From a virus: a stretch of DNA of 52,706 nucleotides. The stretch lies in the IMG/VR virus record IMGVR_UViG_3300021960_000096, positions 1 to 52,706 of that record. The stretch is one strand, 5' to 3'. Both the position numbers and the translations under genes were made by a program. Below, one piece after another: positions 15,047 to 43,687 of this stretch (position 1 is the stretch's first letter; each line of letters begins with the position of its first letter). The notes beneath the pieces are model-generated. The model was not told the origin of the DNA. It saw nothing but the letters and a program-made list of their open reading frames with translations, and made no database searches.

Positions 15047-15538
15047 TTATCTATTTACTGCTTCTGCTAATCCTACTCTATCTGCTCTTGTCAAATGACA
15101 ATCAACTATAATGGCTAATGATGAACCATACCCGCTAGCATAGCTAGATAAGTTGTACTGGTTATCTCTACCTAAAAATAAAGTATTTTCTCTTACTGTA
15201 TCTACTTCATAGAAGTCATTATGCCATTCTACTATATCTCCAACTTCAGGAACTACGTTACTATCAACTAAATCCTGTCTAATAAAAGCAAATGATGCTT
15301 GTCTACCTAAATCTGGTCCAAATTCTGCTATGTCTATTACTTGATCTCCTCTAGTTATTAAACAATATAATTTAATAGCGTTCCAATAAGACTTTTCTAG
15401 TGATTCACCATATAAATTAATTTCTAAATCAGCTAAACTTAGTTTATGGTACAATATTTCCTGTTCTACTATATCTTTTAGTAGTTCACGGTTAATATTA
15501 ACCAGTAAATCAAAGTCTCTATTAGATCCAAACAGCAT
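15047..15538 (-). CDS. Neck protein, T4 gp14-like
   Basis: The 163-aa protein is shorter than T4 gp14 (256 aa), but it has the recognisable PEVGDIVEWHNDFYEVDTV...LGRDNQYNL segment. In gp14 this corresponds to PKEGDLIYFPMDNSLFEI...LGQNA. It lies directly between the gp13-like and gp15-like genes. gp14 helps form the neck ring that gates the packaged head. The assignment combines weak sequence likeness with strong synteny. Confidence 0.6.
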   Translation of the reverse strand: MLFGSNRDFDLLVNINRELLKDIVEQEILYHKLSLADLEINLYGESLEKSYWNAIKLYCLITRGDQVIDIAEFGPDLGRQASFAFIRQDLVDSNVVPEVGDIVEWHNDFYEVDTVRENTLFLGRDNQYNLSSYASGYGSSLAIIVDCHLTRADRVGLAEAVNR

Positions 15539-15837
15539 TATTTTTCTTCTATGGTGTTAGCCCCTACTTCTACTGCTATAACGTTAGTATACTTGGTTTC
15601 AGCATTAGTTTTAAAGGCTGTAAACGCCTCTTCTGGGGTTTTCTGTGTTATTAGTTTAACCTTATAGGTTGTTTTACCAGCTTCTGCATCAGAATTAGCT
15701 TTAGTTACAGTTGTTATACCGGGTAATGCACGTAAAGCATCATCATATCCTTCAGCACCCTCTTCTCCATAGGTAACCTGTACCATGGCCTCGTAAGACT
15801 TGTATTCTATTTCTAATATGATGTCTGTTAGCTTCAT
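15538..15837 (-). CDS. Small protein with candidate capsid-targeting N-terminus
   Basis: The 99-aa product begins MKLTDIILE, with Glu9 in an I-L-E context that fits a T4-type prohead protease site. The rest (residues 17-95) alternates strands and helices (MVQVTYGEEG, KTTYKVKLIT, EEAFTAFKTN), possibly a small alpha/beta domain. It sits between the gp13-like and gp14-like genes with one-base overlaps on both sides. Either a head-internal protein or a neck accessory protein is possible. Confidence 0.55.
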   Translation of the reverse strand: MKLTDIILEIEYKSYEAMVQVTYGEEGAEGYDDALRALPGITTVTKANSDAEAGKTTYKVKLITQKTPEEAFTAFKTNAETKYTNVIAVEVGANTIEEK

Positions 15838-16979
15838 TACCCTATATAAATCGTCATTGGTATTGATTTAAGTGTATTTTGTACATCTTCTGCTTCTTTT
15901 GCTTGTGCTTCTAGCTGTTTTCCACGTGATGTTTGATCTAACATCTCTCTAAGTGCAGTTAAAAGTGCTGTTTTTTCAGCTCTAGAATCGGTTAATAAGG
16001 CTTCCTGGTTTAGGGTAGCTTCAGAACCGGGTACAGGAACAACCTGATACTTACCTCTTATGTATCCTAGTACTTCTTTTGCTAAAGCTAAGGTATAATT
16101 AAATATCCATTGACGTCCAACGCTATTAATATGGCTATATCTAGGATTAGAGTACGGAACTTCACCTACGTTAGTAATATATCCAGGATTATTATCATAA
16201 TTTATCTGTCCTTTATCAGATTCTTTATAATACTCAAAGAATAAACTGCCTGTAGCACTAGGTATAGGGAATAATCGTAGTTCGTTGTTTACTATCTCAA
16301 AAGAATAAGTTGATTTACGAATTTGATCGTTAAATTCTATGGCTTGAGTCTTTAAAATATCGTACGAAGTAGGCATTAACATGAAATTGACTCCAGGAGA
16401 ATAAGCTCCGAAATCAAAAGCTGTCATTAACGATTGTACGCCGGTACCAGTACCTGCATAAGGATCAAAATAGCGTAATATAGCTGGTGGTGCTTCGTAA
16501 AATACTTTTCTTACTTCTATTCCACCAGTTATTCCTTGTTCTGATGCCCAAGTATCTAAATTATAGTTCTGCTGATTACTGTTTATAGCTATTGAACCGG
16601 TATGTCTAGTTACATTTCCACCTACTCCTGCTTCGGTCCCGTAATGTTTAGATATCTGAATGATACGATTTAAGGTAGGGTCGGTAAGTTGGTTATTCAT
16701 TGAACTTCCAGTTCTCGATCCTTCTAAATTTAAGTAATTTTCTCTAATTTTATATTGAAATACTTCGTTACCATATGTAGTGATAGCTTCTTCAAAACAA
16801 GCATACATCTGCTCTTGTTGAAGCTCTACATCCATAAGCGGATAACCAAGTCTAGTTCCTACAAATCTAGCTACTTTAACTGCATCTGCTTGAAAAGTAG
16901 TATCAGAATCGTAGAATCCGAAAGGAGTATCGCCTACATTAAAGGTAGCAGTACCGTTCCATATGCTTACGTTGGCCAT
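15837..16979 (-). CDS. Neck/head-completion protein, gp13-like by synteny
   Basis: The 380-aa protein starts MANVSIWNGTATF and contains FGFYDSDTTFQ, RLGYPLMDVELQ and YGNEVFQYKIRENYL. I associate this set with a structural protein near the capsid gene in many marine T4-like phages. T4 gp13 is 309 aa. Its place immediately before gp14- and gp15-like genes supports a neck role. No enzymatic motif is present. The gp13 label is by gene order, not clear homology. Confidence 0.6.
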   Translation of the reverse strand: MANVSIWNGTATFNVGDTPFGFYDSDTTFQADAVKVARFVGTRLGYPLMDVELQQEQMYACFEEAITTYGNEVFQYKIRENYLNLEGSRTGSSMNNQLTDPTLNRIIQISKHYGTEAGVGGNVTRHTGSIAINSNQQNYNLDTWASEQGITGGIEVRKVFYEAPPAILRYFDPYAGTGTGVQSLMTAFDFGAYSPGVNFMLMPTSYDILKTQAIEFNDQIRKSTYSFEIVNNELRLFPIPSATGSLFFEYYKESDKGQINYDNNPGYITNVGEVPYSNPRYSHINSVGRQWIFNYTLALAKEVLGYIRGKYQVVPVPGSEATLNQEALLTDSRAEKTALLTALREMLDQTSRGKQLEAQAKEAEDVQNTLKSIPMTIYIG

Positions 16980-16994
16980 TTTATATAGTTTTCT

Positions 16995-17002
16995 TATAAA
17001 TA
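16995..17002 (-). promoter_or_regulatory. TATTTATA element before the gp13-like gene
   Basis: The exact 8-mer (context CTATTTATAAG) is five bases past the PhoH stop and 15 bases before the ATG at 16979. If it acts as a -10-like element the leader would be very short. Confidence 0.45.
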
Positions 17003-17006
17003 GCTA

Positions 17007-17717: not shown

Positions 17718-17730
17718 TTATTTGTCTTCT

Positions 17731-17738
17731 TATAAATA
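17731..17738 (-). promoter_or_regulatory. TATTTATA element before phoH
   Basis: The 8-mer sits inside an A/T-rich palindrome (TCTTCT-n7-AGAAGA), 13 bases before the phoH ATG. It comes immediately after the capsid terminator, as expected for a fresh promoter. Confidence 0.5.
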
Positions 17739-17743
17739 GAAGA

Positions 17744-17777
17744 TAAAAAAAAAGGGCCTGCAAAGCAAGCCCTCTTT
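17744..17777 (-). terminator. Rho-independent terminator after the major capsid gene
   Basis: On the coding strand, AGGGC-TTGC and GCA-GGCCCT pair around a TTT loop (stem arms at 17754-17761 and 17765-17772, one mismatch). A run of nine T follows at once. It lies 23 bases past the capsid stop, a classical intrinsic terminator. Confidence 0.85.
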
Positions 17778-17799
17778 ATTAATCTGTCCTAAGGTTATC

Positions 17800-19395
17800 T
17801 TAGATCTGAGCTAAGTCAGAAACGAAGATTTTACCGTAGAATTCAGGTCTGATCATCTTCTTAGCGTAACGAGTCATTAAACCTTTTCTTGGAGTGAAGG
17901 TTTCTGGATCGTATACAAGAGGAGTCATTAATAATGGTACATATGGAGCATATACAGCACCTGCTTCCAAGAACTGAGAACCTCTAAATCCTAATAGGAT
18001 AACGTTTTCAGTCATGTAAGGGTTTTTGTATACTTGGAATCTGTTAGCTAAGCTACCGATTTTCTGTACGCCCATTGCAAATTTCTCTTGGTTACCGTCA
18101 GTTTGAGCAGCATATCCAGGAATTGATTCAAGGATAGTAGCAACTGTTGGAGAACATACTAAGAAATTAGCTCCACCTCTAAGAGTTTTTTGGTGAATCT
18201 TGTTAGATACTTTTTGTACTTTAGTACCTAAAGTTTGGAACCACTGACCTTGAGTGTTGTAGAAATCAGAAGTAGAAGTAGACCATGCAGATCCGTTCCA
18301 TACTTTGTTGTTTTCTGCAGACCATTTCTCAGTTGTTCTTGCACCGTTGATCAACATATCTAAGATCTCAAGATCGATTTCCATAGAGATGTACTCGCTT
18401 AATAAAGAAGTAAGTTCAGCCTCAGCATCGATTGAGTGATATGCGTTAAGATCTTGTGCAAATTCAGGAGTCCATTGTGCTTTTAACTTTCTAGTCTTAG
18501 CAACGATAGCCTCACTTTGTAATTTAACGTCGATCTCTGGGATAGAGATAGAAGTATCTACAGCAGCATTTGAATCAGCTTCGAAGTCACCTCTGTCGTT
18601 ATCAACTGGTTGTTTGTGGTAAACAACTTTTACGTTGTCACCGTTATTGATACCGCCTGCAGCAGACTGTACTAATACCAAGTTAGATCCAGAAATTTTA
18701 GTAAATTCTTTGTGAAGAGTTACACCAGCAGCAGAACCAGAATCTAATACTACGAATGCTCTACATCCTTCTACGTCGTAGTTAGAGATAGAAGATAAAG
18801 GAATAGATACGATCTCATAGTTTCCTAAAGTAAGACCAGCATCGTATCCAACATCTTTAAGAGCAGCAGCTCCTACAGTTGCAGCTACTTCAGTACCTGT
18901 TGCTTGGTTGATTGAATATCCAAACTGTCCAGCTCCGTAAAGACCACCAGCGACATCTAAGTCAGCGGCCATCTTGCTAGAACCTGCAGTTACGTTACCG
19001 TACATGTTTTCTCCGTCACTTCTACCGTTAGTAGCAGTACCGTACTTAAAGTCTAAGTAGAATACTAGCCCTGAAGGCAAGTTCATTGGTTGTACAGATA
19101 CGAAGTCTTGAGCTACGATTTGAGCGAAGACTTTTCTTACAAGTGGTAAAGCTACTCCTGCCCACTGCTCACCTTGACCAGCTGCGAAAGAGGCACCACC
19201 TACGTTTGTGTTGTTAGCCTCAGCTACGATTTGTTTAGCTTGGTTTTCTAGTACCATAGCCATGTTAGTTTTAGCTTTCTCATCAGAGATGCCTTCTAAC
19301 AAACCAGATTGAGACCACTTATCTGCTAATCTAGCAGCGTCAGCTTGCATACTTTTGTAAGTATTTGAGCTTTCTAAAAGTTGGTTAATTTCCAT
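17800..19395 (-). CDS. Major capsid protein, T4 gp23-like
   Basis: The 531-aa protein matches T4 gp23 in size (521 aa), in position after protease and core genes, and in layout. The N-terminal helical propeptide has QIVAE at residues 55-59, followed by ANNTNVGG. This resembles the T4 cleavage region FLTE/AEIGG, so the mature protein probably starts at Ala60. The C-terminus (PLVYDPETFTPRKGLMTRYAK) is typical of the family. The first residues, MEINQLLE, faintly resemble the targeting motif of the putative cargo proteins. A strong terminator follows. Confidence 0.9.
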   Translation of the reverse strand: MEINQLLESSNTYKSMQADAARLADKWSQSGLLEGISDEKAKTNMAMVLENQAKQIVAEANNTNVGGASFAAGQGEQWAGVALPLVRKVFAQIVAQDFVSVQPMNLPSGLVFYLDFKYGTATNGRSDGENMYGNVTAGSSKMAADLDVAGGLYGAGQFGYSINQATGTEVAATVGAAALKDVGYDAGLTLGNYEIVSIPLSSISNYDVEGCRAFVVLDSGSAAGVTLHKEFTKISGSNLVLVQSAAGGINNGDNVKVVYHKQPVDNDRGDFEADSNAAVDTSISIPEIDVKLQSEAIVAKTRKLKAQWTPEFAQDLNAYHSIDAEAELTSLLSEYISMEIDLEILDMLINGARTTEKWSAENNKVWNGSAWSTSTSDFYNTQGQWFQTLGTKVQKVSNKIHQKTLRGGANFLVCSPTVATILESIPGYAAQTDGNQEKFAMGVQKIGSLANRFQVYKNPYMTENVILLGFRGSQFLEAGAVYAPYVPLLMTPLVYDPETFTPRKGLMTRYAKKMIRPEFYGKIFVSDLAQI

Positions 19396-19418
19396 GTTAT
19401 TTCAGTTCTTTAAATTAA

Positions 19419-20477
19419 TTATTTTATAATTCCAGCTAATTTTTGCATTCTAAGAACAGCAGCGTTAGCTTCAGTAATTACTCCTGGTTTACTTGCAGTA
19501 GTACCAGTTGCTTTAGAAGCCATTCCTTTGTTCTCTTTAATTGTAGTTTCTTTTTTGGCAACTACGTTATCGCTAACAGTTTCAAAAACAAGTTTAACTT
19601 CTTTAACAGTCTCGGCTTTATCAAAAGCAGCGATGATGTTAACTTTTTGTGACTCGCTTAAATTGTTAGCTTTGAAAATTTTGTTGACGTAGAGCAACTT
19701 AGAATTTAGAAGATTTACTTCGCTAAGTTCTTTTCTTAATGTCTTAATAGTTTCAAGAGCTTCGTTTAAGTCTTCCTTAACTACTCTATTGATGTTCTTC
19801 TCTTTGGTTTCAGGAGTAGAAGCTACTTCGTTAGCACCAGGTCCTTCTGTTACTTCTTCCATAGTGTCTTCTTCTTCTTTTGTACCTTCAAGTTCTCTAA
19901 TCAATTCATCAAGGTCGATTTCTTCTTCGTCTTCTCCACCAGCTAAAGGATCACCTTCACCCGGTACTTCTAAGTCAGCGCCAGCGTCCATATCGTCAGC
20001 AGGTACTTCAGCGCCCATTTCAGCTCCCATGTCTTCAGCACCACCACCCATTTCTTGAGCGATAAGGTCTCTGATCATGTCTTTGAAATCTGCTACTGTT
20101 AAGTTACCTAACTCTTCGTCTTCAGCAGGCTCATCTTCAGATTCTAATTCTTCTCCAGCTTCGTCCTCAGCTTCTTCTGAGTCATCCTCTACAGGAGCTT
20201 CTTCGTCTTCTTCAGCTACTTCTTGAAATGCTGAAAGATCTTCCTCTACTGTTTCTTCTTTGTCGTTTTTAGCAGATTCTTCTACTTCTTCATCATCCAT
20301 TTCGTTTACTGCTTCTTCGTTTTGAGAATCTTCCATCTCTTGAAGTTTAGCAGCTAACATATCTCTTAGATGAGGAGTTAAAGACTCTTCCAAAGCTTCC
20401 TTAGCGTTAGCAATAGCGGCTTCTCTTACAGACTTAGCTTCAGCAATAGCTTGCTTGAATAAATCTTTGTTTGCCAT
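19419..20477 (-). CDS. Prohead core/scaffold protein, gp22-like
   Basis: The 352-aa protein has a helical N-terminus and a very acidic Glu/Asp-rich centre (about residues 45-215) with Met/Gly-rich breaks. A helical coiled-coil segment follows (LNEALETIKTLRKELSEVN) and it ends in LRMQKLAGIIK. The acidic composition and the place between protease and capsid genes fit a T4 gp22-type core that is degraded by the protease. VITEAN near the C-terminus contains an I-T-E site. T4 gp22 is 269 aa, so this one is enlarged. Confidence 0.75.
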   Translation of the reverse strand: MANKDLFKQAIAEAKSVREAAIANAKEALEESLTPHLRDMLAAKLQEMEDSQNEEAVNEMDDEEVEESAKNDKEETVEEDLSAFQEVAEEDEEAPVEDDSEEAEDEAGEELESEDEPAEDEELGNLTVADFKDMIRDLIAQEMGGGAEDMGAEMGAEVPADDMDAGADLEVPGEGDPLAGGEDEEEIDLDELIRELEGTKEEEDTMEEVTEGPGANEVASTPETKEKNINRVVKEDLNEALETIKTLRKELSEVNLLNSKLLYVNKIFKANNLSESQKVNIIAAFDKAETVKEVKLVFETVSDNVVAKKETTIKENKGMASKATGTTASKPGVITEANAAVLRMQKLAGIIK

Positions 20478-20541
20478 TTTTATTTTTTTTTGTGATTTCT
20501 ACAGTTATTAAAGAACTGCAATAGGAAATAATAAGATATAG

Positions 20542-20562: not shown

Positions 20563-20569
20563 ATTTGTA

Positions 20570-20577: not shown

Positions 20578-20605
20578 TATACCTTTTACAAAACCATTAA
20601 ATAAT

Positions 20606-21145
20606 TTAACTAGTTAGGTCAGTTACTGCGTGGGTAATTAAGTTATTAACTTCTATACCTTTAATTAAAGCTTTTGCGGTATACATTGCTGCTTGAGCCC
20701 ATCTAGTCTTTTTGAGTAAGGCAAGAGCTTCTCCACCAGCTGATCCTGCCATAGCAAATATTACTATTGCGTAAAGTATTTTAGTAATACCTTCTTTCTT
20801 TTTCGGATCTTTAATAAATAAACTAATTACGCGGTTGATAGGAGACATAAACGCTACTTCATTATCATGAGTAAAATGTTCCCACCACTCAGCTGATTTT
20901 TGCATTTTTTGGGAACCTATTTTTTTAGCTAAAAACTTAGCCATTTTAGCAATCATATTAGCAACTGTATTAGAAAGAAGAATCAAACCTATGACACCAA
21001 CAACACCTGCTGCTTCATCGATATTTTCTTTTTCTTTCTCTAACTCAGCCTCTACAGCTTTAGCCATTTGAGCACCGAAATTATCCATTTCCGGAAAATC
21101 TAAATTTTCTTCTTGTTCTAATATAATGTTTGCTAGCTTAATCAT
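20606..21145 (-). CDS. Membrane-active putative head-internal protein
   Basis: The 179-aa protein begins MIKLANIILE with Glu10 in the I-L-E context. An acidic helix follows, then hydrophobic segments at about residues 45-75 (GVVGVIGLILLSNTVANMI) and 125-150 (ILYAIVIFAMAGSAGGEALALL). It lies between protease and core genes, where T4-like phages keep core and internal proteins. It overlaps the protease gene by four bases. A protein packaged in the head and able to insert in a membrane could aid DNA entry or block superinfection; both ideas are inference. Confidence 0.5.
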   Translation of the reverse strand: MIKLANIILEQEENLDFPEMDNFGAQMAKAVEAELEKEKENIDEAAGVVGVIGLILLSNTVANMIAKMAKFLAKKIGSQKMQKSAEWWEHFTHDNEVAFMSPINRVISLFIKDPKKKEGITKILYAIVIFAMAGSAGGEALALLKKTRWAQAAMYTAKALIKGIEVNNLITHAVTDLTS

Positions 21146-21720
21146 GCTCTGAGAATATCGTTGATAATAAAATCTAAACTTGCGTATTTTGATACTTTAG
21201 TTTTGCCTTCATTTAACGATACTGGGTTCATAAACGCACCATGAGTTGATGGATTAGAAACGAAATCCCAGCATACTAATTCAAAGTCTGGTTGTACTTC
21301 TAAAGTTCCCTCATTGGTTTGTTGAACTGATCCGGTACCTCTAGATGAAATACCGATTGTATGGCCTGCTCTAATAATCTCTTTTACGATATTACCTGCA
21401 GGGGTATTTAGTAGTTCTACACGTCCCATAAGGTCGTCTCCCTTCCACCATAACTCTTTTACTATGTGAGAGGCGTTCTTAAGAGAGACAACAGGAGACT
21501 CAGGGTGGTCAAGTTCTCCGAATGCATTACCATTTTTTACGAACTCTTTAATGTACTTACTACATTCTCTTTCTAGAATCTCTTTTTTATAAACTCTACC
21601 GTTTTGGTTTTGTGCTGATGCTCTCTGCATAACACCCTCAACTTCAAAGACTCCAGGTTTACTTTTGGACTCTTTAATGGTAGGTCTAAATGGCGTAACG
21701 TCTACTAATAATTGTGCCAT
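21142..21720 (-). CDS. Prohead protease, T4 gp21-like
   Basis: The 192-aa protein has the features of T4 gp21-type serine proteases: NQNGRVYKKEIL near residue 40, a catalytic His72 in FGELDHPE, and a catalytic Ser in GISSRGTG (Ser125 or Ser126). FELVCWDFVSNPST follows. In T4 this enzyme matures the head by cutting capsid and core proteins after (L/I)-x-E. T4 gp21 is 212 aa. It sits just upstream of core and capsid genes, as in T4. Confidence 0.9.
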   Translation of the reverse strand: MAQLLVDVTPFRPTIKESKSKPGVFEVEGVMQRASAQNQNGRVYKKEILERECSKYIKEFVKNGNAFGELDHPESPVVSLKNASHIVKELWWKGDDLMGRVELLNTPAGNIVKEIIRAGHTIGISSRGTGSVQQTNEGTLEVQPDFELVCWDFVSNPSTHGAFMNPVSLNEGKTKVSKYASLDFIINDILRA

Positions 21721-23472: not shown

Positions 23473-23649
23473 CTAAATATCTTTTGTCTTTTTGTATCCT
23501 TGTTTAGTCAGTACTTTAGTAGCTCTTTTAGAAGGTCTTTTACTAAATGCATTTGGCGTAAGGTATGCACCTACGCCTCCAGAAGTATTAGCTTCTTCTA
23601 ATTCTCGCATTACTTCTCTTATTAACGAAATAATCTCTGATCTTTTCAT
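23473..23649 (-). CDS. Small protein with GGVGAYLTPNAF motif
   Basis: The 58-aa gene starts at 23647-23649 (TAATG overlap with the upstream stop) and ends at 23473. It has an N-terminal helix MKRSEIISLIREVMRELEE, then SGGVGAYLTPNAFSK and a basic tail. I recall the Gly-Tyr-x-Thr-Pro-x-Ala-Phe motif from small proteins next to head genes in other marine myoviruses, which supports this as real. IRE at residues 10-12 could be a protease site. Function unknown. Confidence 0.6.
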   Translation of the reverse strand: MKRSEIISLIREVMRELEEANTSGGVGAYLTPNAFSKRPSKRATKVLTKQGYKKTKDI

Positions 23650-29203: not shown

Positions 29204-30756
29204 TATGCTTCAGGTTCTTCTCCTGGTTCTTCAAAATCAATTGGTTCTCCGCCTAAGTCAGCTCCGCCTTCTTCACCACCAGCTTCTGGTGCTCCTTCTT
29301 CGCCTCCAAGGTCTTCTCCGCCTTCAGCGCCTCCCTCTTCACCAGGGAAGTCACCGCCACCTCCTCCACCGCTTCCGGTATCAGATGGTTCAGCGGCGTC
29401 TCCTTCTCCAGCCCCGCTCATCGGGCCTTCTTGATAAAGTCTCGCCAATTTATCTAAAGCTTGTTGGTATTCGTCTATTTTATCAATATAGTAACGTTTA
29501 CCTTGTATTTGAGCCTCCCAGCCAGTTCCAGTCCACTTAAGTATATAGTATTGTCCGTTTTTAATGTTCACCCTGAATGACGATGGTCTAGGAGAAATCC
29601 AATCTATACTGTCTACGAACTCTTTAAACTGATCTGTTTGAAGCTTAATAATTGCTTTTTTTAAAGTTGGGAACTTCCCTAGTATTTCATCAGTAGCATC
29701 TTCTAATACTGTTTCTGGACCAGCTTTTGGATCTGGTTCTTGCTCTGGTTGTGGTTCATCTGCTTCTGCTTCTTCAATATCTTGCCATAAGGCTTCTCTA
29801 ATTTTACCTTCAGAGAACATTTGCATCATTTTTGAAAAATCTTCTCCAAAGAATGCTCTAAGGTATGATCTTTTAGCTTGTTGTACTAAACTTTCTCTTC
29901 CTTGACGAGTTTGATATTCTTCCCAATCGTCCCAGTAGAAATCTACTGCATCTTCAACAGCACTTTCAAATTCATGAGAGAAAGGAGAAGGCATTTTTTT
30001 AGGATTGCCTAAATCTCTATGAATAGCTTGATTCATAGCATATTGATCTGATGATCCCCAATCCTCTCTAAGAGATTTTTTTGCTTGTTTTACTATAGAA
30101 TGCCAGTTACTTAAATCGTATGCATCCCAATTATCTACATCTTTTTGATTTAAATAATGAGAGTCTTGTCCAATTTTTCTAAGTACGTTATAAACCTCAT
30201 CTTGATCTGGGTAATCTTTTTTACGTTTCGAGGGTGTACCTGATTTTATAGCTTCTTCTAGGTCTTTTAATTCCCAAATATTCTCACTTAAGCTTCTTCT
30301 CATTTTTAACAGTAAGTACTGTTCAGGTCTTTCTGTACGTAAGTAACGCTGTAATTTTCTAAAGTTAGTTTTTATTAAATCAAATAGTTCTCTAGCCGCT
30401 AGATCTTTTCTAACGTCATCTGATCTCATTAGAGTTTTTAGGTCCTCTATAATGTCAGAAAAATTAAAGTATAGCGCATCGAAAGAGGGCATTCTAACTA
30501 TTTCGTGTGCTACTGATCCGGTTTCCCTATTTACTTTAGAAGTTTTAAAATAGGTAGTACCGTCAGAACTAATAAAGTCAAACTTAGGCTCTACTCCCCT
30601 ACCATATCTATCTTCAATAGTCTTCTTCATTGAAGGAGACAAATTATCTACACGGGTAGTATTGTCTCTTTTAGAACCCATATGATCGGTGTCTTCTTCT
30701 TTTTCTCGAAGATAGGCACCTAATTGTTCTAATATGATTTTTTCTAACTTATGCAT
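29203..30756 (-). CDS. Putative head-internal protein with Gly/Glu-rich tail
   Basis: The 517-aa protein begins MHKLEKIILE (Glu10). The body is helical and charged. Residues about 380-430 form a compact Trp/Tyr-rich region (IDWISPRPSSFRVNIKNGQYY, then WTGTGWEAQIQGKRYYID). The last 75 residues are an acidic Gly/Glu/Pro repeat, low in complexity. Acidic tails of this kind occur in T4-type core proteins. It overlaps the 389-aa gene by one base (TAATG). Enzymatic function not recognised. Confidence 0.5.
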   Translation of the reverse strand: MHKLEKIILEQLGAYLREKEEDTDHMGSKRDNTTRVDNLSPSMKKTIEDRYGRGVEPKFDFISSDGTTYFKTSKVNRETGSVAHEIVRMPSFDALYFNFSDIIEDLKTLMRSDDVRKDLAARELFDLIKTNFRKLQRYLRTERPEQYLLLKMRRSLSENIWELKDLEEAIKSGTPSKRKKDYPDQDEVYNVLRKIGQDSHYLNQKDVDNWDAYDLSNWHSIVKQAKKSLREDWGSSDQYAMNQAIHRDLGNPKKMPSPFSHEFESAVEDAVDFYWDDWEEYQTRQGRESLVQQAKRSYLRAFFGEDFSKMMQMFSEGKIREALWQDIEEAEADEPQPEQEPDPKAGPETVLEDATDEILGKFPTLKKAIIKLQTDQFKEFVDSIDWISPRPSSFRVNIKNGQYYILKWTGTGWEAQIQGKRYYIDKIDEYQQALDKLARLYQEGPMSGAGEGDAAEPSDTGSGGGGGGDFPGEEGGAEGGEDLGGEEGAPEAGGEEGGADLGGEPIDFEEPGEEPEA

Positions 30757-34714: not shown

Positions 34715-35398
34715 CTACTTACCACCTTTCATGTTTGCACACCAGTGATACATTTTACCTTTTTCTCCTCCGTACTTTTTAGCTTTAGCTCGTAAGTCGG
34801 TTACTGAACCTTTACATGAGGCTCCTGATTTTTTAACTCTACCGGGTCTAGATTTTCCTTTTACTTTACCGTCGGCGTAGTTTTCGTTAGAAGGAACTTT
34901 TAAAGGCTGTGTAGCAAAATATTCTTTTAAATTCACTCCTTGTTTTTTAGCATCTGCTAAAGGCATAGTCTTAGGAAGTTTATTTTCATCCCACTCTACA
35001 CCTTGATCAGCTAATAATATTTTGTCGTCTGATAAGATTCTTGCATTAATCTGTGGTAGTTTACCAATAGTAAAAGCACCTAATCTATGGTTACCGTCTA
35101 TGACTGCGTATTTACCGTTAATGATTGGGTGGGGTATAGCTACTATGGGTGGAAATTTTTTCCAGCCATCTCCAGAAGCATCTTTTATCATGTCCTCTAC
35201 ATACTGCTTTTTTTCAGTTGTAAAGTAGTTATAATCTTTTCCTGGTTCGTTACCTATACAATCAGCTACATTTAAAACTTTATTAGTACCGGCAATATTT
35301 TCATCTGTATCTACACCTTGAAAATTATGGTATACGATAACCTTACCTTTTTTGAAGGCCTCAAAAAGTATCTCGTTTACAAGGCGTGTTAATTTCAT
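34715..35398 (-). CDS. ParB/sulfiredoxin-fold protein with basic Cys tail
   Basis: The 227-aa protein has a ParB-like nuclease or NTPase domain. PPIVAIPHPIINGKYAVIDGNHRLGAF holds the diagnostic Asp101-Gly-Asn-His104-Arg105. The N-terminus MKLTRLVNEILFE contains L-F-E at 11-13, a possible protease site. The last 45 residues form a basic module with two Cys (SCKGSVTDLRAKAKK, YHWCANMK), probably nucleic-acid binding. ParB-like domains hydrolyse CTP or act as nucleases in different families. Role here unknown. Confidence 0.6.
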   Translation of the reverse strand: MKLTRLVNEILFEAFKKGKVIVYHNFQGVDTDENIAGTNKVLNVADCIGNEPGKDYNYFTTEKKQYVEDMIKDASGDGWKKFPPIVAIPHPIINGKYAVIDGNHRLGAFTIGKLPQINARILSDDKILLADQGVEWDENKLPKTMPLADAKKQGVNLKEYFATQPLKVPSNENYADGKVKGKSRPGRVKKSGASCKGSVTDLRAKAKKYGGEKGKMYHWCANMKGGK

Positions 35399-35399: not shown

Positions 35400-36311
35400 T
35401 TACAATTTAGAAAAGTAATCTTTTAGCATTTGTATGTAGAGTTGTTTATCTTCACCTTTCAGTTCTACAAATGCCTTAGTATAATAGTACTTTACGTTGC
35501 CAAACCATCTAACAGCATCTGATTTATCTTCTCCAAGATTTGTAGATTGTCTACCGCCTTGAGGCATAATAGTATCTTCTGCTGAAGCCATTAGAGATTT
35601 AATAGAGCCAAATACTCTTCCTCCTGCTTCCCATTCTTTTCCTGTCTTAGCATCTATTAGAGCATATTTAGCTCTATCAGGCATTACCTTAATTAATTTA
35701 AAGATAATATCTCCGTGTCTTGATGGAACTTCTTCTGGCCATTCTTCTCCTTCATTTAGTTTACCAGAAGCTTCTATATTACTAATTACAGATTGAACTA
35801 AGTAGATTGCATCTTTAGCTCCGTAACCGTATCGCTTAGCTAACTTCATAATAAAGTCACCAACTAATTTTTCTGCTTCAGGGTTAACGTTTGCTTCAGA
35901 TACTTTAGTGGCTTCTTTTACCCGCTGGGTGTTAAATATTTTAAGTATCTCGTCTACTACTTCTTTATGAAGGTTACCGTTCTCATCTGCTACATAATAA
36001 GCAGTCATATTTCTACTGCCTTTATCTAATTGATAAGATTTTTCAACTTCTTTTTTCGCTTCTGCGTAAGAGTCGTATGGAGTTTTAAATATACCTTTGC
36101 CTTGTCCTCTACCTAGATTATACCCTACGTAGAATTTACCTTGTTCTTCAGACATTTTATTAATCTTCTTACCAGCTGCTACTGCATCTTTATGTGCATT
36201 AGAATTACCGTGAGAAGGTTTTTCTCCTTTTTCTCTTTTAGCTCTAATGTTAGCCCAAAGTCCTGGTTTTTCTTCTTGTAGCTCTTTAAGTGCTTGTTTT
36301 AGGTTTTTCAT
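35400..36311 (-). CDS. Hypothetical protein with GLWANI basic motif
   Basis: The 303-aa protein starts MKNLKQALKE, with Glu10 in an L-K-E context, then GLWANIRAKREKGEKPSHG. That basic motif recurs in many unrelated phage proteins as I remember them. A central region (FYVGYNLGRGQGKGIFKTPYD) and a helical domain (about 150-190) follow. The C-terminus has WFGNVKYYYTKAFVELKGEDK. Candidate packaged protein. No catalytic motif recognised. Confidence 0.5.
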   Translation of the reverse strand: MKNLKQALKELQEEKPGLWANIRAKREKGEKPSHGNSNAHKDAVAAGKKINKMSEEQGKFYVGYNLGRGQGKGIFKTPYDSYAEAKKEVEKSYQLDKGSRNMTAYYVADENGNLHKEVVDEILKIFNTQRVKEATKVSEANVNPEAEKLVGDFIMKLAKRYGYGAKDAIYLVQSVISNIEASGKLNEGEEWPEEVPSRHGDIIFKLIKVMPDRAKYALIDAKTGKEWEAGGRVFGSIKSLMASAEDTIMPQGGRQSTNLGEDKSDAVRWFGNVKYYYTKAFVELKGEDKQLYIQMLKDYFSKL

Positions 36312-36312
36312 A

Positions 36313-36672
36313 TTACTGAAGTTTGTCTGAATGCATCATTAGCATTCTGATGATGATAGATGCTAAAATACCAAAAATAACCCAAAGGGCCTTAGTAACT
36401 CCATTCTTCCAAGTTTCGATTTCAGAAATTTTAGCCATCTGAGTATCGAATTCTTTTTGATTAGACTGAAGAGATTGTCTAAATTCTGTGTTTTTGTTGG
36501 TATTTACAATAACTCCATTGTCGGGATTGAGTAATGTGTATTTGAGATCTGACATATCATCCTTAAGGTTTTCCATATCTTTTTGCATAGCCTTTAACTC
36601 ACCGTTAGGCATATGCGTTTTAATGTGTCTTATTTCCGCTAATACAGCATCAAGTACTTCTTTCTGTGTCAT
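36313..36672 (-). CDS. Coiled-coil protein with C-terminal membrane anchor
   Basis: The 119-aa protein is helical with heptad-like spacing (MQKDMENLKDDMSDLKYTLLNP). It contains NGVIVNTNKNTEFRQ and a single membrane segment near residues 95-112 (ALWVIFGILASIIIRMLMM). This layout, a coiled coil then a C-terminal anchor, is common in phage lysis-cassette and membrane proteins. It could be holin-related or a spanin-like adaptor. Evidence for either is weak. Confidence 0.45.
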   Translation of the reverse strand: MTQKEVLDAVLAEIRHIKTHMPNGELKAMQKDMENLKDDMSDLKYTLLNPDNGVIVNTNKNTEFRQSLQSNQKEFDTQMAKISEIETWKNGVTKALWVIFGILASIIIRMLMMHSDKLQ

Positions 36673-37459: not shown

Positions 37460-37461
37460 AA

Positions 37462-37596
37462 TTATTTCCCTCTACCGGATTTTTTTACTGCGGTGGATCT
37501 TTTTACATTTTGTCTATTACCTGTAACATTTTTTGTATTTTGATCTTTTTTGATATTATCATTCAATGATCTACTCGAAAAAAATTTACTACTCAT
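37462..37596 (-). CDS. Small basic peptide
   Basis: The 44-aa gene (ATG 37594-37596, TAA 37462) encodes a Lys/Ser/Asn-rich peptide starting MSSKFFSSRSLND and ending KKSGRGK. It overlaps the end of the HAD gene by eight bases and abuts the PspC gene by two bases. It resembles the other tiny basic proteins at 44616 and 45007. Nucleic-acid binding is possible. Function unknown. Confidence 0.5.
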   Translation of the reverse strand: MSSKFFSSRSLNDNIKKDQNTKNVTGNRQNVKRSTAVKKSGRGK

Positions 37597-38134
37597 ATCC
37601 TAGTTTTTTTAATTCTTCAATTACATGATTTACGTCTCCATTTTTACATCTGATAGCTATCCCGCCTTTGGATGCCCATTCATTAATGTTTGATTTTTTA
37701 TCATCAATAAGAATAGCATCAGGCTGTGCGTACTGTTGCTTATCAGCTGAATATGCAAAGTTTACTTTTGGTTTAGGGTTTAGATTATTTCTAACCCATA
37801 AGTTTTTTCCTAATCTAGATTCATTATTTCTAGAAGGGGAAGTTAAAAGATCCGGTTTATATGGTTTTATAAAATTCCAAAGTTGTCTACCTTGAGGCAT
37901 CCAATCCATTCCTACCCAGAATTTAACTCCTACTTTAACATCTATTAAATTCCAAAACTGTTCAGTACCGTATTGACTTTCGTACTCTTGAGGATTCATT
38001 CCAGTGAAGTGGTCAAACCTTGCTTCAAAGTCTGTTAACACTCCATCCATATCGCAGTATATTTTATACTTTGGAAGTTCTTTTTGTTCGGGAAGAGGAT
38101 AAGCTTCTAATAAGTCTACTAACTTTTTTTTCAT
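37589..38134 (-). CDS. HAD-superfamily phosphatase, candidate packaged enzyme
   Basis: The 181-aa protein has HAD motif I as YCDMDGVL (Asp28, Asp30), motif II LLTSPSR, and motif IV LIDDKKSN. It resembles small 5'-nucleotidase or polynucleotide 3'-phosphatase domains. The N-terminus MKKKLVDLLE, with Glu10 after L-L, fits the putative capsid-targeting signal. The start overlaps the stop of the nucleotidyltransferase gene (ATGA), and that gene overlaps the kinase gene the same way. The three may act in one pathway of end or nucleotide repair; that is inference. Confidence 0.75.
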   Translation of the reverse strand: MKKKLVDLLEAYPLPEQKELPKYKIYCDMDGVLTDFEARFDHFTGMNPQEYESQYGTEQFWNLIDVKVGVKFWVGMDWMPQGRQLWNFIKPYKPDLLTSPSRNNESRLGKNLWVRNNLNPKPKVNFAYSADKQQYAQPDAILIDDKKSNINEWASKGGIAIRCKNGDVNHVIEELKKLGYE

Positions 38135-39837
38135 AACCTTTGATTTATACCTAATGAAGGTAGTCTTTTATTCCATAATATACGAATTTTTTCGCGGACT
38201 TCCAACGATTCTCCTGTTTTTTTCAGGTAGTCATCTACTACATCTGAGAATGGCTTTTTAGACTTTTTGGCTTTAAAATATAAGCCTTGTATCATAGCAT
38301 CTACTTCCTTAGGTAGGTAGTAATAGTTTTCTTTATCTAGTATACCCTGATCAATCAAGTCTCTTAAATCCTTGTCATCTGGTATGTATTTACCCTGTCT
38401 AACATTTTCACCGTCTTGAGTAAGGTGTTCTAATTCATGTCTAACGACATCTTTTAGATCCATAGAGATTTCTTGCCAATCTGGGTCTAGAGGTATATTG
38501 AATACTACGTTAATTAAAGGATAAATTTCATCTCCCTCGTCATCAAATCCAGCATTAGCTCCACCGTCAACAGAATAGATATCATCTTTAAATTCGGCGT
38601 ATACATTAAAATCTACTTCAAATTGAGTAGACTCTATATCAACGTCATCATGTTCTGGGTTGCCTACTCTAATGGTAGTGTTTACATTTTTTCTACCTTC
38701 TTCATGTGCTTTTTTTAAAACATCAAAAGCATATCTAGAAAGTACATTAGATATCTTGCCGTACTTGCCTTCTGCCACAACTTCTTGTTTTGGTTTATTT
38801 TTAATAGAATCTTCCCAATTGCGAAAAGTTATATTTCCTTTTAAGTAAGCTTCTTTTTCTATCTCTAGTAAATCATCGTCTTCGTTTGTATTACTTGTAC
38901 CAATATTACCTAACCTGCCTTCTAAGTTCTGCATATGGTGAATCATTTCATGTACAAATGATCTTACGATATCTTTAGGGTGTCTTCCTTCAACGTAAAG
39001 AACAACTTCTTGTTTATTTGGATCATAATGAGCTGTTTTACCAAAAAAGTCTGCAGCATTTGCTTCATCTCTAACTGTCTTGACTTCTGGTAGAGGAAGT
39101 ACTTTCATCTTCTGATCAATCATATACTCTAATATAGAAGCAATATATTTAGTATACTCAGGAACTTCTTCTTTTTCTTCTTGAATTTCTGGCTGTGCAA
39201 AATACTCTGTTATGTAGCCGTCAATATTTGATCCAATAATTTCTGCTACGATCTTATCTTTCAAATCAACTAATATACGTAGTATCTCTCCTCTTTCCAA
39301 CTCTTTAGGAAAAAAGTCTACAATTTTATCTAAATTGCCTGCTAGTATACTTGCTCTAAAATCTGTTGCTCTAACTCCAGAACCTGGTGCTGCTGCTAAT
39401 GCTAAACCTTGTACGTTAGGTGTATTGGCAAATGTAGTAACTCTTCTTAAGTCTACAAAGTCTTTTTCACCTCTAATTCCAGTTACAGCTACAAATTCTT
39501 CGTTTGGATTATCTTTTGCATAATTTTTAGCACCAAACATTGGATTCTGTCCACCGTCTAATATTTCTACATTTCCTAAATGCTTGGCATATATGTTCCA
39601 AATAGTTAAAGCTTCTTGTTTGTCTATACCGTTTCTTTCTCCAGCACCTACAAAAACTACAACCTTATCAATATTAGGTTTATCTCCTGCTTCTTTTAAA
39701 AATAAGCTTGCGCCTTTTTCTTTATAATCGTCTTTAGAATAGATTGTACCATTATAGGAGCCGTCGAGTAAAGATTTTACTACGTTAAAATGTCCTCTAT
39801 GAGGTGGTTTAAATGCTCCTGGGTATAATGCTATCAT
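38131..39837 (-). CDS. Nucleotidyltransferase fused to two metalloprotease-like domains
   Basis: The 568-aa protein has an HxGH-type nucleotidyltransferase at residues 1-215, with PGAFKPPHRGHF (His13, His16) and GSGVRATDFRAS as the second signature. A second domain has HEMIHH (296-301) followed by LLEIEKEAYLKGN, the HExxH plus distal Glu layout of zinc metallopeptidases. A third domain has HELEH (467-471) and EVDAMIQGLYFKAKK downstream. Such a three-part fusion is unusual. The protease-like domains could process host proteins or release the enzyme. It overlaps both kinase and HAD genes by four bases. Confidence 0.75.
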   Translation of the reverse strand: MIALYPGAFKPPHRGHFNVVKSLLDGSYNGTIYSKDDYKEKGASLFLKEAGDKPNIDKVVVFVGAGERNGIDKQEALTIWNIYAKHLGNVEILDGGQNPMFGAKNYAKDNPNEEFVAVTGIRGEKDFVDLRRVTTFANTPNVQGLALAAAPGSGVRATDFRASILAGNLDKIVDFFPKELERGEILRILVDLKDKIVAEIIGSNIDGYITEYFAQPEIQEEKEEVPEYTKYIASILEYMIDQKMKVLPLPEVKTVRDEANAADFFGKTAHYDPNKQEVVLYVEGRHPKDIVRSFVHEMIHHMQNLEGRLGNIGTSNTNEDDDLLEIEKEAYLKGNITFRNWEDSIKNKPKQEVVAEGKYGKISNVLSRYAFDVLKKAHEEGRKNVNTTIRVGNPEHDDVDIESTQFEVDFNVYAEFKDDIYSVDGGANAGFDDEGDEIYPLINVVFNIPLDPDWQEISMDLKDVVRHELEHLTQDGENVRQGKYIPDDKDLRDLIDQGILDKENYYYLPKEVDAMIQGLYFKAKKSKKPFSDVVDDYLKKTGESLEVREKIRILWNKRLPSLGINQRL

Positions 39838-40769
39838 GCTAAAAAGTCCTGTAATGCTTTATCTATTTCTTGTGCAGATGAATGCTTTAATTGTTCTTGA
39901 AACTCTGGACTAAATAACATTTCAGCAATATTCTCTAATACTTCTTCTTGTTTTTGATCATTTTTAGCTTTAAGGTCTCTGTATTTCTTTACTGCATCTT
40001 TTAGTTTATCTGCACCAGGCCCTACACCATTCTTTTGGAAAGCATCTAAGAACGCTTTCTTGATGGCTCTATCTTCACTATAGTTTCCTTTATCCCAATC
40101 AATACCTTGAGTGGCTTTGAAGAATTCGTTTTCTTCTTCTTGAGACATTTCTAATGGCTTTCTAAAAGTAGAACCGTCATCGTCAGGGTTTTTAGAGGTA
40201 ACCCATCTTTTTAAAAAGTCTGATATTCCTTTAGCACCGTTTTTAGCTGCAGTATCAAATGCCTCTACCTCTGCAGCATACTTACCTTTTCTGTCATTAA
40301 TGTATAAAGAGAATTGACCACCAGTCATTTTATTGTAGTCTTTAATTAACTGATAGACATTTCTCCAGGTTGAGAATACAGCTGCTTCTGGTACTCTTCT
40401 CTCTCTCTTAAAGTTTCCTACGAAAGCATTCATAGGGTGAGTATAGACCATAACCATATAGACATCATAGCCTTTAGTTATAAGTTCTTTAACTTTAGTA
40501 GGGTTAGAAGCTGTAGTATCCCAAACAAATGACTGTTTAGTTGTCGAGAGGTCTTCTGCCTCCTTGTCTGCTAGGGCTGCTGCTCTTGATAGGTTGTTGT
40601 ACGCTTGGTGGTTGGGATCCTCTACGTATTTGTCGGGGTTGACTATTGGGAGTGATCCTAGGTTGAGTTTGTCTAGGAGAGATGACTTCCCTGCTGCTGC
40701 TCCTCCTGCCATTACTATTACCTTCGGCCGGCCTTTCGCTTCTAAAATTAGGTCTGTTAAATTGATCAT
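39834..40769 (-). CDS. Zeta-toxin-like P-loop kinase, candidate packaged effector
   Basis: The 311-aa protein has Walker A GGAAAGKSS at residues 22-30, then VNPDKYVED and FVWDTTASNPTKV, then VYMVMVYTHP. This order resembles zeta-toxin kinases, which in known cases phosphorylate UDP-N-acetylglucosamine and stop wall synthesis. A polynucleotide kinase is the alternative. The N-terminus MINLTDLILE (Glu10) fits the putative capsid-targeting signal. The first 77 codons overlap the end of the lipoprotein gene in another frame. The start is fixed because Walker A lies only 20 residues in. Confidence 0.7.
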   Translation of the reverse strand: MINLTDLILEAKGRPKVIVMAGGAAAGKSSLLDKLNLGSLPIVNPDKYVEDPNHQAYNNLSRAAALADKEAEDLSTTKQSFVWDTTASNPTKVKELITKGYDVYMVMVYTHPMNAFVGNFKRERRVPEAAVFSTWRNVYQLIKDYNKMTGGQFSLYINDRKGKYAAEVEAFDTAAKNGAKGISDFLKRWVTSKNPDDDGSTFRKPLEMSQEEENEFFKATQGIDWDKGNYSEDRAIKKAFLDAFQKNGVGPGADKLKDAVKKYRDLKAKNDQKQEEVLENIAEMLFSPEFQEQLKHSSAQEIDKALQDFLA

Positions 40770-41151
40770 TTCTTTCTAAGTTATTACTTCCTCTTCTTCC
40801 TCGAATTATAGTTCTAGGTCTGTTCAGAGGCACTGTTACACTGGGTCCAATATATGGTCTGTTATAAATAGTGCTTCCATACCATCTATAGGGGTTAGAG
40901 TAAAAGTAGTAAGGAAAAGCTTGATAAGGGTACCACTGGTTATTCCAATTAAAGCTCCAGTTCTGATAGCTGCCATAACTGTACTCTCTAAGAACTCTAT
41001 CAATAGAAACTTGTACGGTATCACCAGCAGAGTTAATAGCAAGCAATTTTTCTACTCTTACTCTAGGTTGGGTATTGATTAGATATGTACCACAACCACC
41101 TAAAGATAAGAAAATTAATGCAAAGAAAAAACTTTTAATTATATTTTTCAT
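40537..41151 (-). CDS. Lipoprotein whose tail is overprinted on the kinase gene
   Basis: The 204-aa protein has a lipoprotein signal: basic start, hydrophobic core IIKSFFFALIFLSLGG and lipidation Cys20 (lipobox LGGC). The mature part is Tyr/Trp-rich (NWSFNWNNQWYPYQAFPYYFY), then a disordered Arg/Ser/Pro/Gln-rich tail from about residue 120. The last 77 codons overlap the kinase gene by 233 bases in a different frame. It would be lipid-anchored in the host envelope, possibly for superinfection exclusion or lysis. The dual-coding stretch is G/C-richer than its surroundings. Confidence 0.65.
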   Translation of the reverse strand: MKNIIKSFFFALIFLSLGGCGTYLINTQPRVRVEKLLAINSAGDTVQVSIDRVLREYSYGSYQNWSFNWNNQWYPYQAFPYYFYSNPYRWYGSTIYNRPYIGPSVTVPLNRPRTIIRGRRGSNNLERNDQFNRPNFRSERPAEGNSNGRRSSSREVISPRQTQPRITPNSQPRQIRRGSQPPSVQQPIKSSSPSRQGGRRPLDN

Positions 41152-41930
41152 AGTTTTAATGTTGTAGGGTAACTATTATAAATAGGTTCGGTTACTGGGT
41201 TTTCTAATTTGTAAAGTTCATAGATCATTTTAAATAATTCAAAATTCTTATCTATTTCGTCTGTTACTTTAATTTGCCAGCCCTTACCTTGGTAAGTTCC
41301 TTTCTTAGTTGATTTACTTCTTGTATGAGCTTTTAACCAAAGAATACCTGTGCGGTCTATTTTAATTCCTTTACATTCTTCTAAAGCTTTTGCGTAAGAA
41401 GCAAGCTGTAAGTCATAAGATTTATGTAAACTGTTTGAAGTTTTAAGATCTAATAACCAAACTTCTCCGTCCATTTTAACTACTAAGTCAGCAGTACCTG
41501 CGTATTGATGTTCGTCAGACCAAACAAAGTCTTCAGTAGAAATTAATTCTGGTTTATGAGTTCTCCAAAATTCACAGAACTTCAATATCATTTCCCATAC
41601 TAGTTGAGAATACTTAGCGTTACCGTAATCGTCCATCCACCTAATCTCTTCTCCTTTGATCAATCTTTCTGCAGCTTCGTGAACCTGTGTTCCTTCTTTA
41701 CCTGCTTTTCTCATAATAAGATCGGCGTTATGCCCAACATCTTTTAACCAAGTTTCGAAAAAAGAATTCTTGGGCATGTATTGGAGTATAGTAGTTACGG
41801 ATGGATAGTATACTCCTTCGCCTCTCTTGTAAACTCTCCTATCTAGAAAGTTTATTTGTTGTAAGTCTGGATTATAGTCAAGTCGTTTTTTCTCGTTTTG
41901 CTCGAGAATATTCATTCCTTGTTTTATCAT
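41148..41930 (-). CDS. RecB/Cas4-family PD-(D/E)XK nuclease
   Basis: The 260-aa protein has the RecB-type nuclease set in order: His84 (GTQVHEAAE), Asp148 (GTADLVV), Asp161-Leu-Lys163 (LLDLKTS), and Gln175...Tyr179 (QLASYA). The early YPSVTTILQYM is usual in phage members. Such nucleases process DNA ends, for example as exonucleases in recombination. It overlaps the primase gene by four bases and the lipoprotein gene by four. The first residues, MIKQGMNILE (Glu10), also fit the putative targeting pattern, though a replication role is equally likely. Confidence 0.8.
   Translation of the reverse strand: MIKQGMNILEQNEKKRLDYNPDLQQINFLDRRVYKRGEGVYYPSVTTILQYMPKNSFFETWLKDVGHNADLIMRKAGKEGTQVHEAAERLIKGEEIRWMDDYGNAKYSQLVWEMILKFCEFWRTHKPELISTEDFVWSDEHQYAGTADLVVKMDGEVWLLDLKTSNSLHKSYDLQLASYAKALEECKGIKIDRTGILWLKAHTRSKSTKKGTYQGKGWQIKVTDEIDKNFELFKMIYELYKLENPVTEPIYNSYPTTLKL
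41177..41184 (-). promoter_or_regulatory. TATTTATA element upstream of the lipoprotein gene
   Basis: The exact 8-mer lies in the last codons of the nuclease gene, 25 bases before the lipoprotein ATG. Its spacing to the start matches the intergenic copies. Confidence 0.4.
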
Positions 41931-42850: not shown

Positions 42851-42893
42851 TCGTTAATCCGTAACTATTACTTGTAATATAAGAAAAATATTT

Positions 42894-43322
42894 CTAAATA
42901 TCAACTAATTTTAAATGATTTTTTTGATTAATCATTACATTAGAGGGTCTTATATCTAATTCTTCAGGATCTAATCCTAGTCTTTCTGCTTCTGCTTCTG
43001 TAGCATCGATCCACTCTTCTGGTATCTCTCCTTTGAAATCTCCTAAGACTTCAAGTTGAATAATACCTAACTTAGGACCTAACGTTTCAGCATCGTAGAT
43101 GTAAGCAAAGTTGTTTGTTTTTTTACCCTTAAGGATATGGGCGTGTTCTAATTCTATTTCGTCTGTGGTTACTTTATAGACACGTCCGTTAAGTAGATAA
43201 GCTGATCCGTAATCACCTGAACCTAGGTACTTACCGCCTTGATCCTTTATTTTGTCAATTTCTTTTTCAAACTCAGGATTGTAGTAAAGTATTTCTCCTA
43301 ATATGACGTGTGATAGTCTCAT
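42894..43322 (-). CDS. Miniature protein-kinase-like protein, candidate packaged effector
   Basis: The 142-aa protein has a glycine-rich loop, LGSGDYGSAY (33-41), and a Lys50 in VYKVT. Its catalytic-loop pattern is Asp123-IRPS-Asn128-VM, followed by Asp141 in LVD. The spacings of 5 (Asp to Asn) and 13 (Asn to Asp) equal those of eukaryotic-type kinases (Asp166, Asn171, Asp184 in PKA). The protein then stops at residue 142, so the substrate lobe is missing. The N-terminus MRLSHVILGE (Glu10) fits the targeting signal. It may phosphorylate a small molecule or a host protein. Confidence 0.65.
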   Translation of the reverse strand: MRLSHVILGEILYYNPEFEKEIDKIKDQGGKYLGSGDYGSAYLLNGRVYKVTTDEIELEHAHILKGKKTNNFAYIYDAETLGPKLGIIQLEVLGDFKGEIPEEWIDATEAEAERLGLDPEELDIRPSNVMINQKNHLKLVDI

Positions 43323-43327
43323 ACATT

Positions 43328-43687
43328 TTAATCTAAACCAGAAGTTCTTCCGGCTTGTCTTTCTTTATCTAACCAAGCTGCTTTACCAGCTGTGTATCTA
43401 TTCTTATCTGATATAAACCTATCGTCAAGTATTTTAACTTTCTCCCAGTACCCTGCTTCAGCATCTATTCTCAAATTAAAATCTCCATATCTTTTCTCCA
43501 TAAGTGATTTCCAATACCCTAATTGAGTTTCGGTATAAATTGATGAAGAAGAATCATCCGTGTTAGGAAGATTATACGGGGGTTTACCAAGTGTAGAAGC
43601 TAGTACATCCATAGTTAGCTCGCTTAGCTTCACTGTAGCTTGTCTAGGTCCTGGTTCTTCGTTAAGAATAATATCTGAAAGCTTCAT
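43328..43687 (-). CDS. Small protein with candidate capsid-targeting N-terminus
   Basis: The 119-aa protein starts MKLSDIILNE, with Glu10 in an L-N-E context. The middle is rich in Ser/Asp/Thr (NTDDSSSSIYTETQ). The C-terminus is charged and helical (YGDFNLRIDAEAGYWEKVK, KAAWLDKERQAG). The first nine residues are nearly identical in type to the 99-aa protein at 15538 (MKLTDIILE), although the bodies are unrelated. No function recognised. Confidence 0.55.
   Translation of the reverse strand: MKLSDIILNEEPGPRQATVKLSELTMDVLASTLGKPPYNLPNTDDSSSSIYTETQLGYWKSLMEKRYGDFNLRIDAEAGYWEKVKILDDRFISDKNRYTAGKAAWLDKERQAGRTSGLD

Follow-up and report, generated by a model that had tools for sequence, protein, structure and literature searches.

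The viral record IMGVR_UViG_3300021960_000096 (IMG/VR), whose 52,706 nucleotides were analyzed here as one window, encodes about ten proteins with unrelated bodies that begin with the same short signature, a hydrophobic pattern of about ten residues ending in Glu (the tag). Judging from sequence comparison, this signature is very probably a capsid-targeting propeptide of the kind used by bacteriophage T4, with about ten substrates. This interpretation rests on localized enrichment of the tag, a contrast between Glu and Asp at its last position, positions that match those of the T4 protein IPIII and the behavior of T4 itself as a control. It rests further on tag swapping, retention of the Glu through indels, tagless homologs outside the group and an L-x-E motif where a constant module meets variable bodies, as well as on predicted disorder of the tag in a kinase model and the alignment of small tagged proteins across the capsid cleavage site. 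A preliminary description of the window had proposed the same reading, and the N-termini that it quoted are all present at the respective genes.

The 52.7-kb record has T4-type head genes, namely those for terminase, portal, gp21-type protease and gp23-type capsid protein. A record of 169,750 bases (G009) was 99.95–100% identical to the window across positions 6–51,255 and is therefore the same virus, nearly whole. Flavobacterium phage immuto was the closest cultured relative seen (capsid protein identity 66.9%), on the basis of which the host is probably a member of Bacteroidota. All tagged and head genes of the window whose coordinates are given below lie on the minus strand.

A strict motif was defined as hydrophobic-x-x-hydrophobic-hydrophobic-x-Glu near the N-terminus, and its rate within protein bodies served as background. 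The window contained 11 matches against 1.1 expected, and observed numbers also exceeded expectation in immuto (18 vs 3.7) and in the related records G002 (17 vs 4.0), G003 (15 vs 2.0), G008 (10 vs 0.7), G009 (12 vs 3.8), G010 (14 vs 3.6) and G011 (12 vs 4.3), as well as in T4 (11 vs 4.0). Little excess was found in Mel-JY01 (8 vs 4.0), P-SSM4 (5 vs 2.8) and RM378 (5 vs 4.2). When the window was examined together with 80 capsid-centered loci (genes with an ATG start and at least 70 amino acids (aa)), a regular expression for the tag matched 177 of 970 genes vs 15 of 5,804 internal-Met controls, many of the matching genes being orthologs and hence not independent. The shared signature is thus real, and it is localized: in G009, the strict motif was present in 11 of the 32 genes of the head/cargo block (7.5–35.8 kb) vs 1 of 180 elsewhere (Fisher p = 1.9e-9), the block boundaries having been drawn around the region of the preliminary description after the tag positions were known. 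Among these 11 matches, we judged two false (PhoH and a 119-aa protein at 36313), and three members counted as true (142 aa, 181 aa and the 119-aa protein at 43328) depart from the strict form by one residue. An origin by chance, by a bias at translation starts or by recent duplication of a single short piece of DNA is so improbable as to be negligible. Short patterns do occur by chance, some strict matches are false (PhoH and a family starting MATLNYNIRERV), and same-residue codons across the window tags were identical in 46 of 69 comparisons, slightly over codon-usage expectation; but the regular-expression control, the motif excess, its localization and the Glu/Asp control contradict such an origin, and differing synonymous codons were used in 23 of the 69 comparisons.

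The motif was also unevenly distributed among protein families. In 136 families with at least three members, 18 were majority-tagged by the strict motif, at least three of which we judge to be false matches. It was absent from the portal (0/40), terminase (0/36), protease (0/47) and primase (0/7) families and from three neck-region families (0/69, 0/66 and 0/76), and the pattern is therefore not equally frequent in structural and replication proteins, in agreement with the preliminary description. Strict matches judged to be false were those of PhoH (1 of 46 in its family) and of the families starting MATLNYNIRERV and MAVYRIFPEKD. The family of the 119-aa protein at 36313 matched in 4/4 members but was excluded, having weak virion-structural and hemolysin PHROG matches and a coiled-coil membrane appearance. 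A loose motif, which permits one or two residues ahead of the Glu, matched 27 of 36 terminases; terminase was not counted as tagged because none of the 36 had the strict form.

A loose scan of T4 retrieved two proteins starting MKTYQEFIAE, a 683-aa protein starting MMELITELFDE, and gp24. The MKTYQEFIAE open reading frame (ORF) is presumably IPIII, and we take the 683-aa protein to be Alt. MKTYQEFIAE has hydrophobic residues at positions 4, 7 and 8 and Glu at position 10, and the motif positions of the window group coincide with these. According to the available excerpts of a review, residues 4 and 7 control targeting and residues 8 and 10 control processing, Asp at position 10 inhibits processing, and gp21 cleaves after L/I-x-E (PMC9026906). 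In ten related records pooled, Glu occupied the last motif position 128 times vs 29 expected (4.4x), whereas Asp was found 16 times vs 26 expected (0.6x) and Lys 22 times vs 29. In Mel-JY01 (PP395634), tagged proteins were seen at 60276–62718 and 79976–80464, including three paralogs that start MIKLxSLxxEIISDRVWHLT or similar and resemble, by eye, ADP-ribosyltransferases; ADP-ribosyltransferase is the activity of T4 Alt.

The tag behaves as an exchangeable module. The family of the 517-aa protein (29203..30756) carries tag type A (MHKLEKIILE, 30727–30756 in the window) in some phages and tag type C (for example, MKKSQLRDIIVEA) in others, and the immuto member of the 179-aa family also has tag type C. 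Peptide searches of the phage collection with tag types B and C found matches in the four immuto records only. The unrelated bodies had only the tag in common. Conversely, C-terminal modules recurred behind different tags, as in the 227-aa protein (34715..35398; tag MKLTRLVNEILFE at 35360–35398), and one of five proteins with module A (in G006) was untagged. Such Cys-containing basic C-terminal modules (GSVTDLRAKAKKYGG..YHWCANM and GILKKRLGKLTCSKVR..YLNYHC) were seen on otherwise different, mostly tagged proteins of the window (34715–35398), G003, G005, G006, G008, G010, G011 and immuto. Swapped tags, recurring C-terminal modules and the dissimilar body clusters described below bear out the earlier statement that the bodies are unrelated.

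The Glu was retained across one-residue indels. In the nucleotidase family, LLE-AYP alternates with LLKE-, LLGE- and LLNE-GYP, and 51 of 55 complete distinct N-termini kept the Glu. It was retained in 46 of 47 distinct N-termini of the zeta-like kinase, the remaining one being truncated, and at 48/48 loci of the mini kinase, a count read off a list of N-termini. Outside the group, the same enzyme may lack the tag. The 181-aa 5'(3')-deoxyribonucleotidase of the window (37589..38134; PHROG 2643, expectation value (E) 1.6e-23) has a tagged extension of about 22 residues (MKKKLVDLLE, 38105–38134), which is also tagged in relatives, while the protein begins directly at the catalytic motif in five of eight outside homologs (Atu_ph07, Phosso, Cr30, OLIVR1 and BUCT-ZZ01). 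The phiM5 copy forms part of a longer protein. The T4-superfamily marine phages HTVC008M and Melnitz do have an extension, but one without the strict motif. In these two phages, which infect Pelagibacter and Methylophilales, respectively, a cytidylyltransferase-like gene lies near the nucleotidase gene (HTVC008M, 7414–12570; Melnitz, 1647–6522), as in the window, and N-termini at that locus bear other short Glu-ending leaders. A 261-aa family (window 45135–45920) offers a natural pair with and without the tag, as two of its seven relatives have the strict form and the others, including the window protein, do not.

The 389-aa protein (28034..29203), encoded just upstream of the terminase gene, has a constant module of residues 1–41 (29081–29203) followed by a variable body. 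Residues E10, W11, G18, P20 and D27 of the module were invariant in 14/14 proteins. A single-protein search gave one locus, so an alignment search was used and 80 of the 396 related loci were taken. The 63 proteins of at least 280 residues from these loci formed six body clusters (39, 12, 3, 3, 3 and 3). Of 600 pairs whose first 36 residues were at least 70% identical, 365 had no body similarity at E 0.01; for example, L132 and L444 share 35 of 36 module residues and have no detectable similarity beyond. In 49 FG-variant proteins, conservation was 0.90 at L39 and 0.86 at E41 and only 0.22–0.49 for residues 42–50; therefore, the constant part ends in L-x-E. The preliminary description had expected a trimmed piece of about 10 residues in all members, and about 41 residues are more likely here. 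The terminase gene was no more than 3.5 kb away for 33 of 64 distinct proteins of this type, and short contigs are the likely explanation for the loci without a nearby terminase. The model of the 389-aa protein (predicted local distance difference test (pLDDT) 82.9) resembled restriction endonuclease HinP1I (2fkc; Z score 8.3, root-mean-square deviation (rmsd) 4.4, 200 residues aligned), and D211, S224 and K226 of the body, candidates for a D...(E/S)-x-K active site, were invariant in 25 proteins. A restriction-endonuclease-like (PD-(D/E)XK) identity is only a lead, because the best Foldseek E was just 0.07. Residues 19–132 gave weak nucleotidyltransferase-like matches only (Z about 5–7), and in Pfam only Fibritin_C matched, weakly, in 2 of 14 proteins of the locus.

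Several tagged proteins belong to the head-gene cluster. The 99-aa protein adjoining the neck genes (15538..15837; tag MKLTDIILE at 15811–15837) is from a family strict-tagged in 56 of 68 members; the 179-aa protein between protease and scaffold (20606..21145; tag MIKLANIILE at 21116–21145) from one tagged in 12 of 15; and a 58-aa protein (23473..23649; tag type C, MKRSEIISLIREVMRELEE, at 23593–23649), encoded between the portal and protease genes, from one tagged in 40 of 42. The presumed tag cutter, a gp21-type prohead protease, is encoded at 21142..21720 (PHROG 207, E 5.9e-54), as had been proposed. A scaffold-like protein in the gp22 position (19419..20477), named by gene order and without a match in the PHROG search, has the tag-like start ANKDLFKQAIAEA, and its family was strict-tagged in 51 of 74 members. 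The major capsid protein of gp23 type (17800..19395; PHROG 138, E 1.8e-75) has the tag-like N-terminus MEINQLLE, with the strict motif in 10 of 79 members. The 58-aa protein, the scaffold and the capsid protein had been overlooked, so that the earlier list was incomplete.

By comparison with T4 gp23, the propeptide of the capsid protein is predicted to comprise residues 1–59 (19219–19395), with the cut at IVAE/A (the slash marks the cut); T4 gp23 is cut at residue 65, as stated in an excerpt of a published account (PMC9958956). In 28 of 40 genomes, the alignment of the 58-aa-type protein to the capsid protein, which spans this predicted cut or starts from it, scored above all 50 shuffles each (for example, LDE/ANTTNVGGASF with VSE/ANSTNVGGGSF in L009); the remaining 12, among them the window and immuto, gave scores that did not exceed all 50 shuffles. 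In T4, gp61.1 (NC_000866, 18966–19130, gene 61.1), a hypothetical protein of 54 aa with the tag-like start MKTFKEFIKE, aligned with gp23 across the cleavage site with a score of 82, reached by 0 of 1,000 shuffles and the best of all T4 ORFs below 200 aa. Because the small tagged proteins and gp61.1 align across the capsid cleavage site, these comparisons suggest that the cut in the tag family is of the same kind as that of the capsid protein. The 99-, 179- and 58-aa members may belong to the core or shell and not to the delivered cargo. An explanation that extends this to the whole set takes the tags for prohead-assembly signals only: tagged proteins would join the core to assist head construction or maturation, or be broken down as T4 gp22, gp67 and gp68 are, and few or none would be delivered. 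It fits the small size and head-cluster location of the tagged families with the highest conservation (99, 179 and 58 aa, and scaffold). We consider it unlikely, since the kinase, zeta-like kinase and nucleotidase bodies and the hypervariable payload would hardly be assembly parts.

With respect to membership, the 99-, 58-, 179-, 389-, 517-, 181-, 311-, 142- and 119-aa (43328) proteins are convincing. Most of the earlier list therefore stands, whereas the 227-aa and 303-aa proteins are only probable members and the 260-aa exonuclease is a doubtful one. In favor of the 227-aa protein is the presence of its C-terminal module behind other tags. The 303-aa protein (35400..36311) has a degenerate tag, MKNLKQALKE, which is clearer in its relative in G002, where MKKSVLTELIREIIKEE precedes the same motif. 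The 260-aa PD-(D/E)XK exonuclease (41148..41930; start MIKQGMNILE; PHROG 298, E 2.4e-43) is ambiguous because the strict motif fails in all seven family members although (I/V)-L-(x)-E is retained. The 119-aa protein (43328..43687; tag MKLSDIILNE at 43658–43687) resembles, by eye, a G011 protein starting MKLSDIILAE. Pfam gave no match for most cargo proteins. One with a match is the 311-aa zeta-toxin-like P-loop kinase (39834..40769; tag MINLTDLILE at 40740–40769; Zeta_toxin, 41.4 bits, cutoff 22.3), for which a sequence search for solved structures returned no relative at E 0.01. A 204-aa lipoprotein-like ORF (window 40537–41151) shares about 230 bases with the start of this gene, read in a different frame.

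The 142-aa protein (42894..43322; tag MRLSHVILGE at 43293–43322) appears to be a mini protein kinase. Its model (pLDDT 88.8) was disordered solely over residues 1–11, that is, the tag, and residues 16–142 matched protein kinases (PKR, 6d3k, with Z 10.6, rmsd 3.6 and 121 aligned; best Foldseek E 3.8e-5), so the modeled fold is that of a protein kinase N-lobe. Residues G34, G36, G39, K50, N128 and D141 were invariant in 25/25 proteins, and we read them, presumably, as the glycine loop, the Lys, the catalytic loop and the DFG-type Asp. All 25 aligned proteins stop one residue past this last Asp and have no complete C-lobe with activation segment; therefore, most of the C-lobe is missing.

It should be noted that several observations weigh against the capsid-targeting interpretation. 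Ser (58 observed vs 24 expected), Ala (42 vs 22), Gln (26 vs 15) and Gly (40 vs 23) were also enriched 1.7–2.4x at the last motif position in the pooled records. Tagged genes are interspersed with non-head genes, for example those for primase and exonuclease; 4 of the 55 nucleotidase N-termini lack the Glu, as does most of the 261-aa family; and the window's own 58-aa copy does not resemble the capsid protein. Among the literature listed for them, no proteomic analysis of virions was seen for immuto or HTVC008M. Finally, the N-terminal module of the 389-aa protein was modeled, at intermediate confidence, as helical rather than disordered (block means 76, 79, 77 and 67), with E10-W11 inside a predicted helix. 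This last feature, together with membrane-like stretches seen by eye in some tagged proteins, would suit an uncut amphipathic helix that docks to a portal, tail, membrane or host protein. Such a role seems very unlikely to us, as selection at a single position in favor of Glu and against Asp, maintained through indels, and the L-x-E at the module boundary point to a protease.

On the capsid-targeting interpretation, hydrophobic residues within the first 10 or so positions, or within the module of about 41 residues in the 389-aa protein, would bind the scaffold core during head assembly, and each tagged protein would thereby be incorporated into the prohead. Cleavage by the gp21-type protease behind the Glu of (L/I/V)-x-E would then release the body, be it the kinase, the zeta-like kinase, the nucleotidase, the nuclease-like payload or another protein, which would remain with the packaged DNA and enter the host at infection.

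The set resembles IPI-III and Alt of T4, as far as excerpts of the relevant reports describe them, in having about ten tag residues with hydrophobic positions 4, 7 and 8 and Glu at 10 (PMC9026906, PMC9958956, PMC3012670, PMC12373910), unrelated bodies, a gp21-type protease and a composition that varies among phages. It differs in having about ten substrates, several of them enzymes, against four in T4, as well as three tag types, one locus with a module of about 41 residues and exchanged bodies, and another phage lineage. In the accessible parts of other accounts, the head ejection proteins of SPN3US and phiKZ also have propeptides cut after a short Glu-ending motif, with a proposed targeting role, but these are mostly far longer (>100 residues) and use an A-x-E motif (PMC5694885, PMC7411985). 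Similarly, in an excerpted report on phage P1, a short N-terminal signal of DarB suffices for packaging a reporter, although the Dar proteins have no common consensus (PMC9024508). No description of such tags in the present phage group was found in the open-licence literature. The possibility that T4-like phages package various proteins by means of the tag is already in print (PMC9026906, in excerpt), and the excerpted reports indicate that the set of injected proteins following such a signal varies among these phages, at least ten having been identified through it (PMC12373910, PMC3012670, PMC9958956). For this reason, we regard the system as a larger, enzyme-rich version of T4 head delivery and not as a new kind.

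A bolder proposal, which is plausible but which we put forward only tentatively, is that the capsid of this T4-type lineage serves as a general protein-delivery device whose label recombines onto many bodies. The terminase-side locus, with its constant module of about 41 residues, would swap hypervariable payloads resembling restriction endonucleases, much as polymorphic toxins do, and the truncated protein kinase and the zeta-like kinase would be co-delivered and act on the host before phage gene expression.

If the capsid-targeting interpretation is true, the injected protein set of a large, mostly uncultured phage group would be readable from sequence alone, and the tag would mark genes that act in the first moments of infection. 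Immuto, being a cultured relative, makes an experimental test practical. As portable packaging signals, the tags would form a new family, and T4 head delivery would be extended from four proteins to about ten, in an enzyme-rich form and in a distant lineage. They would also point to unstudied effectors and to the defenses that these may counter.

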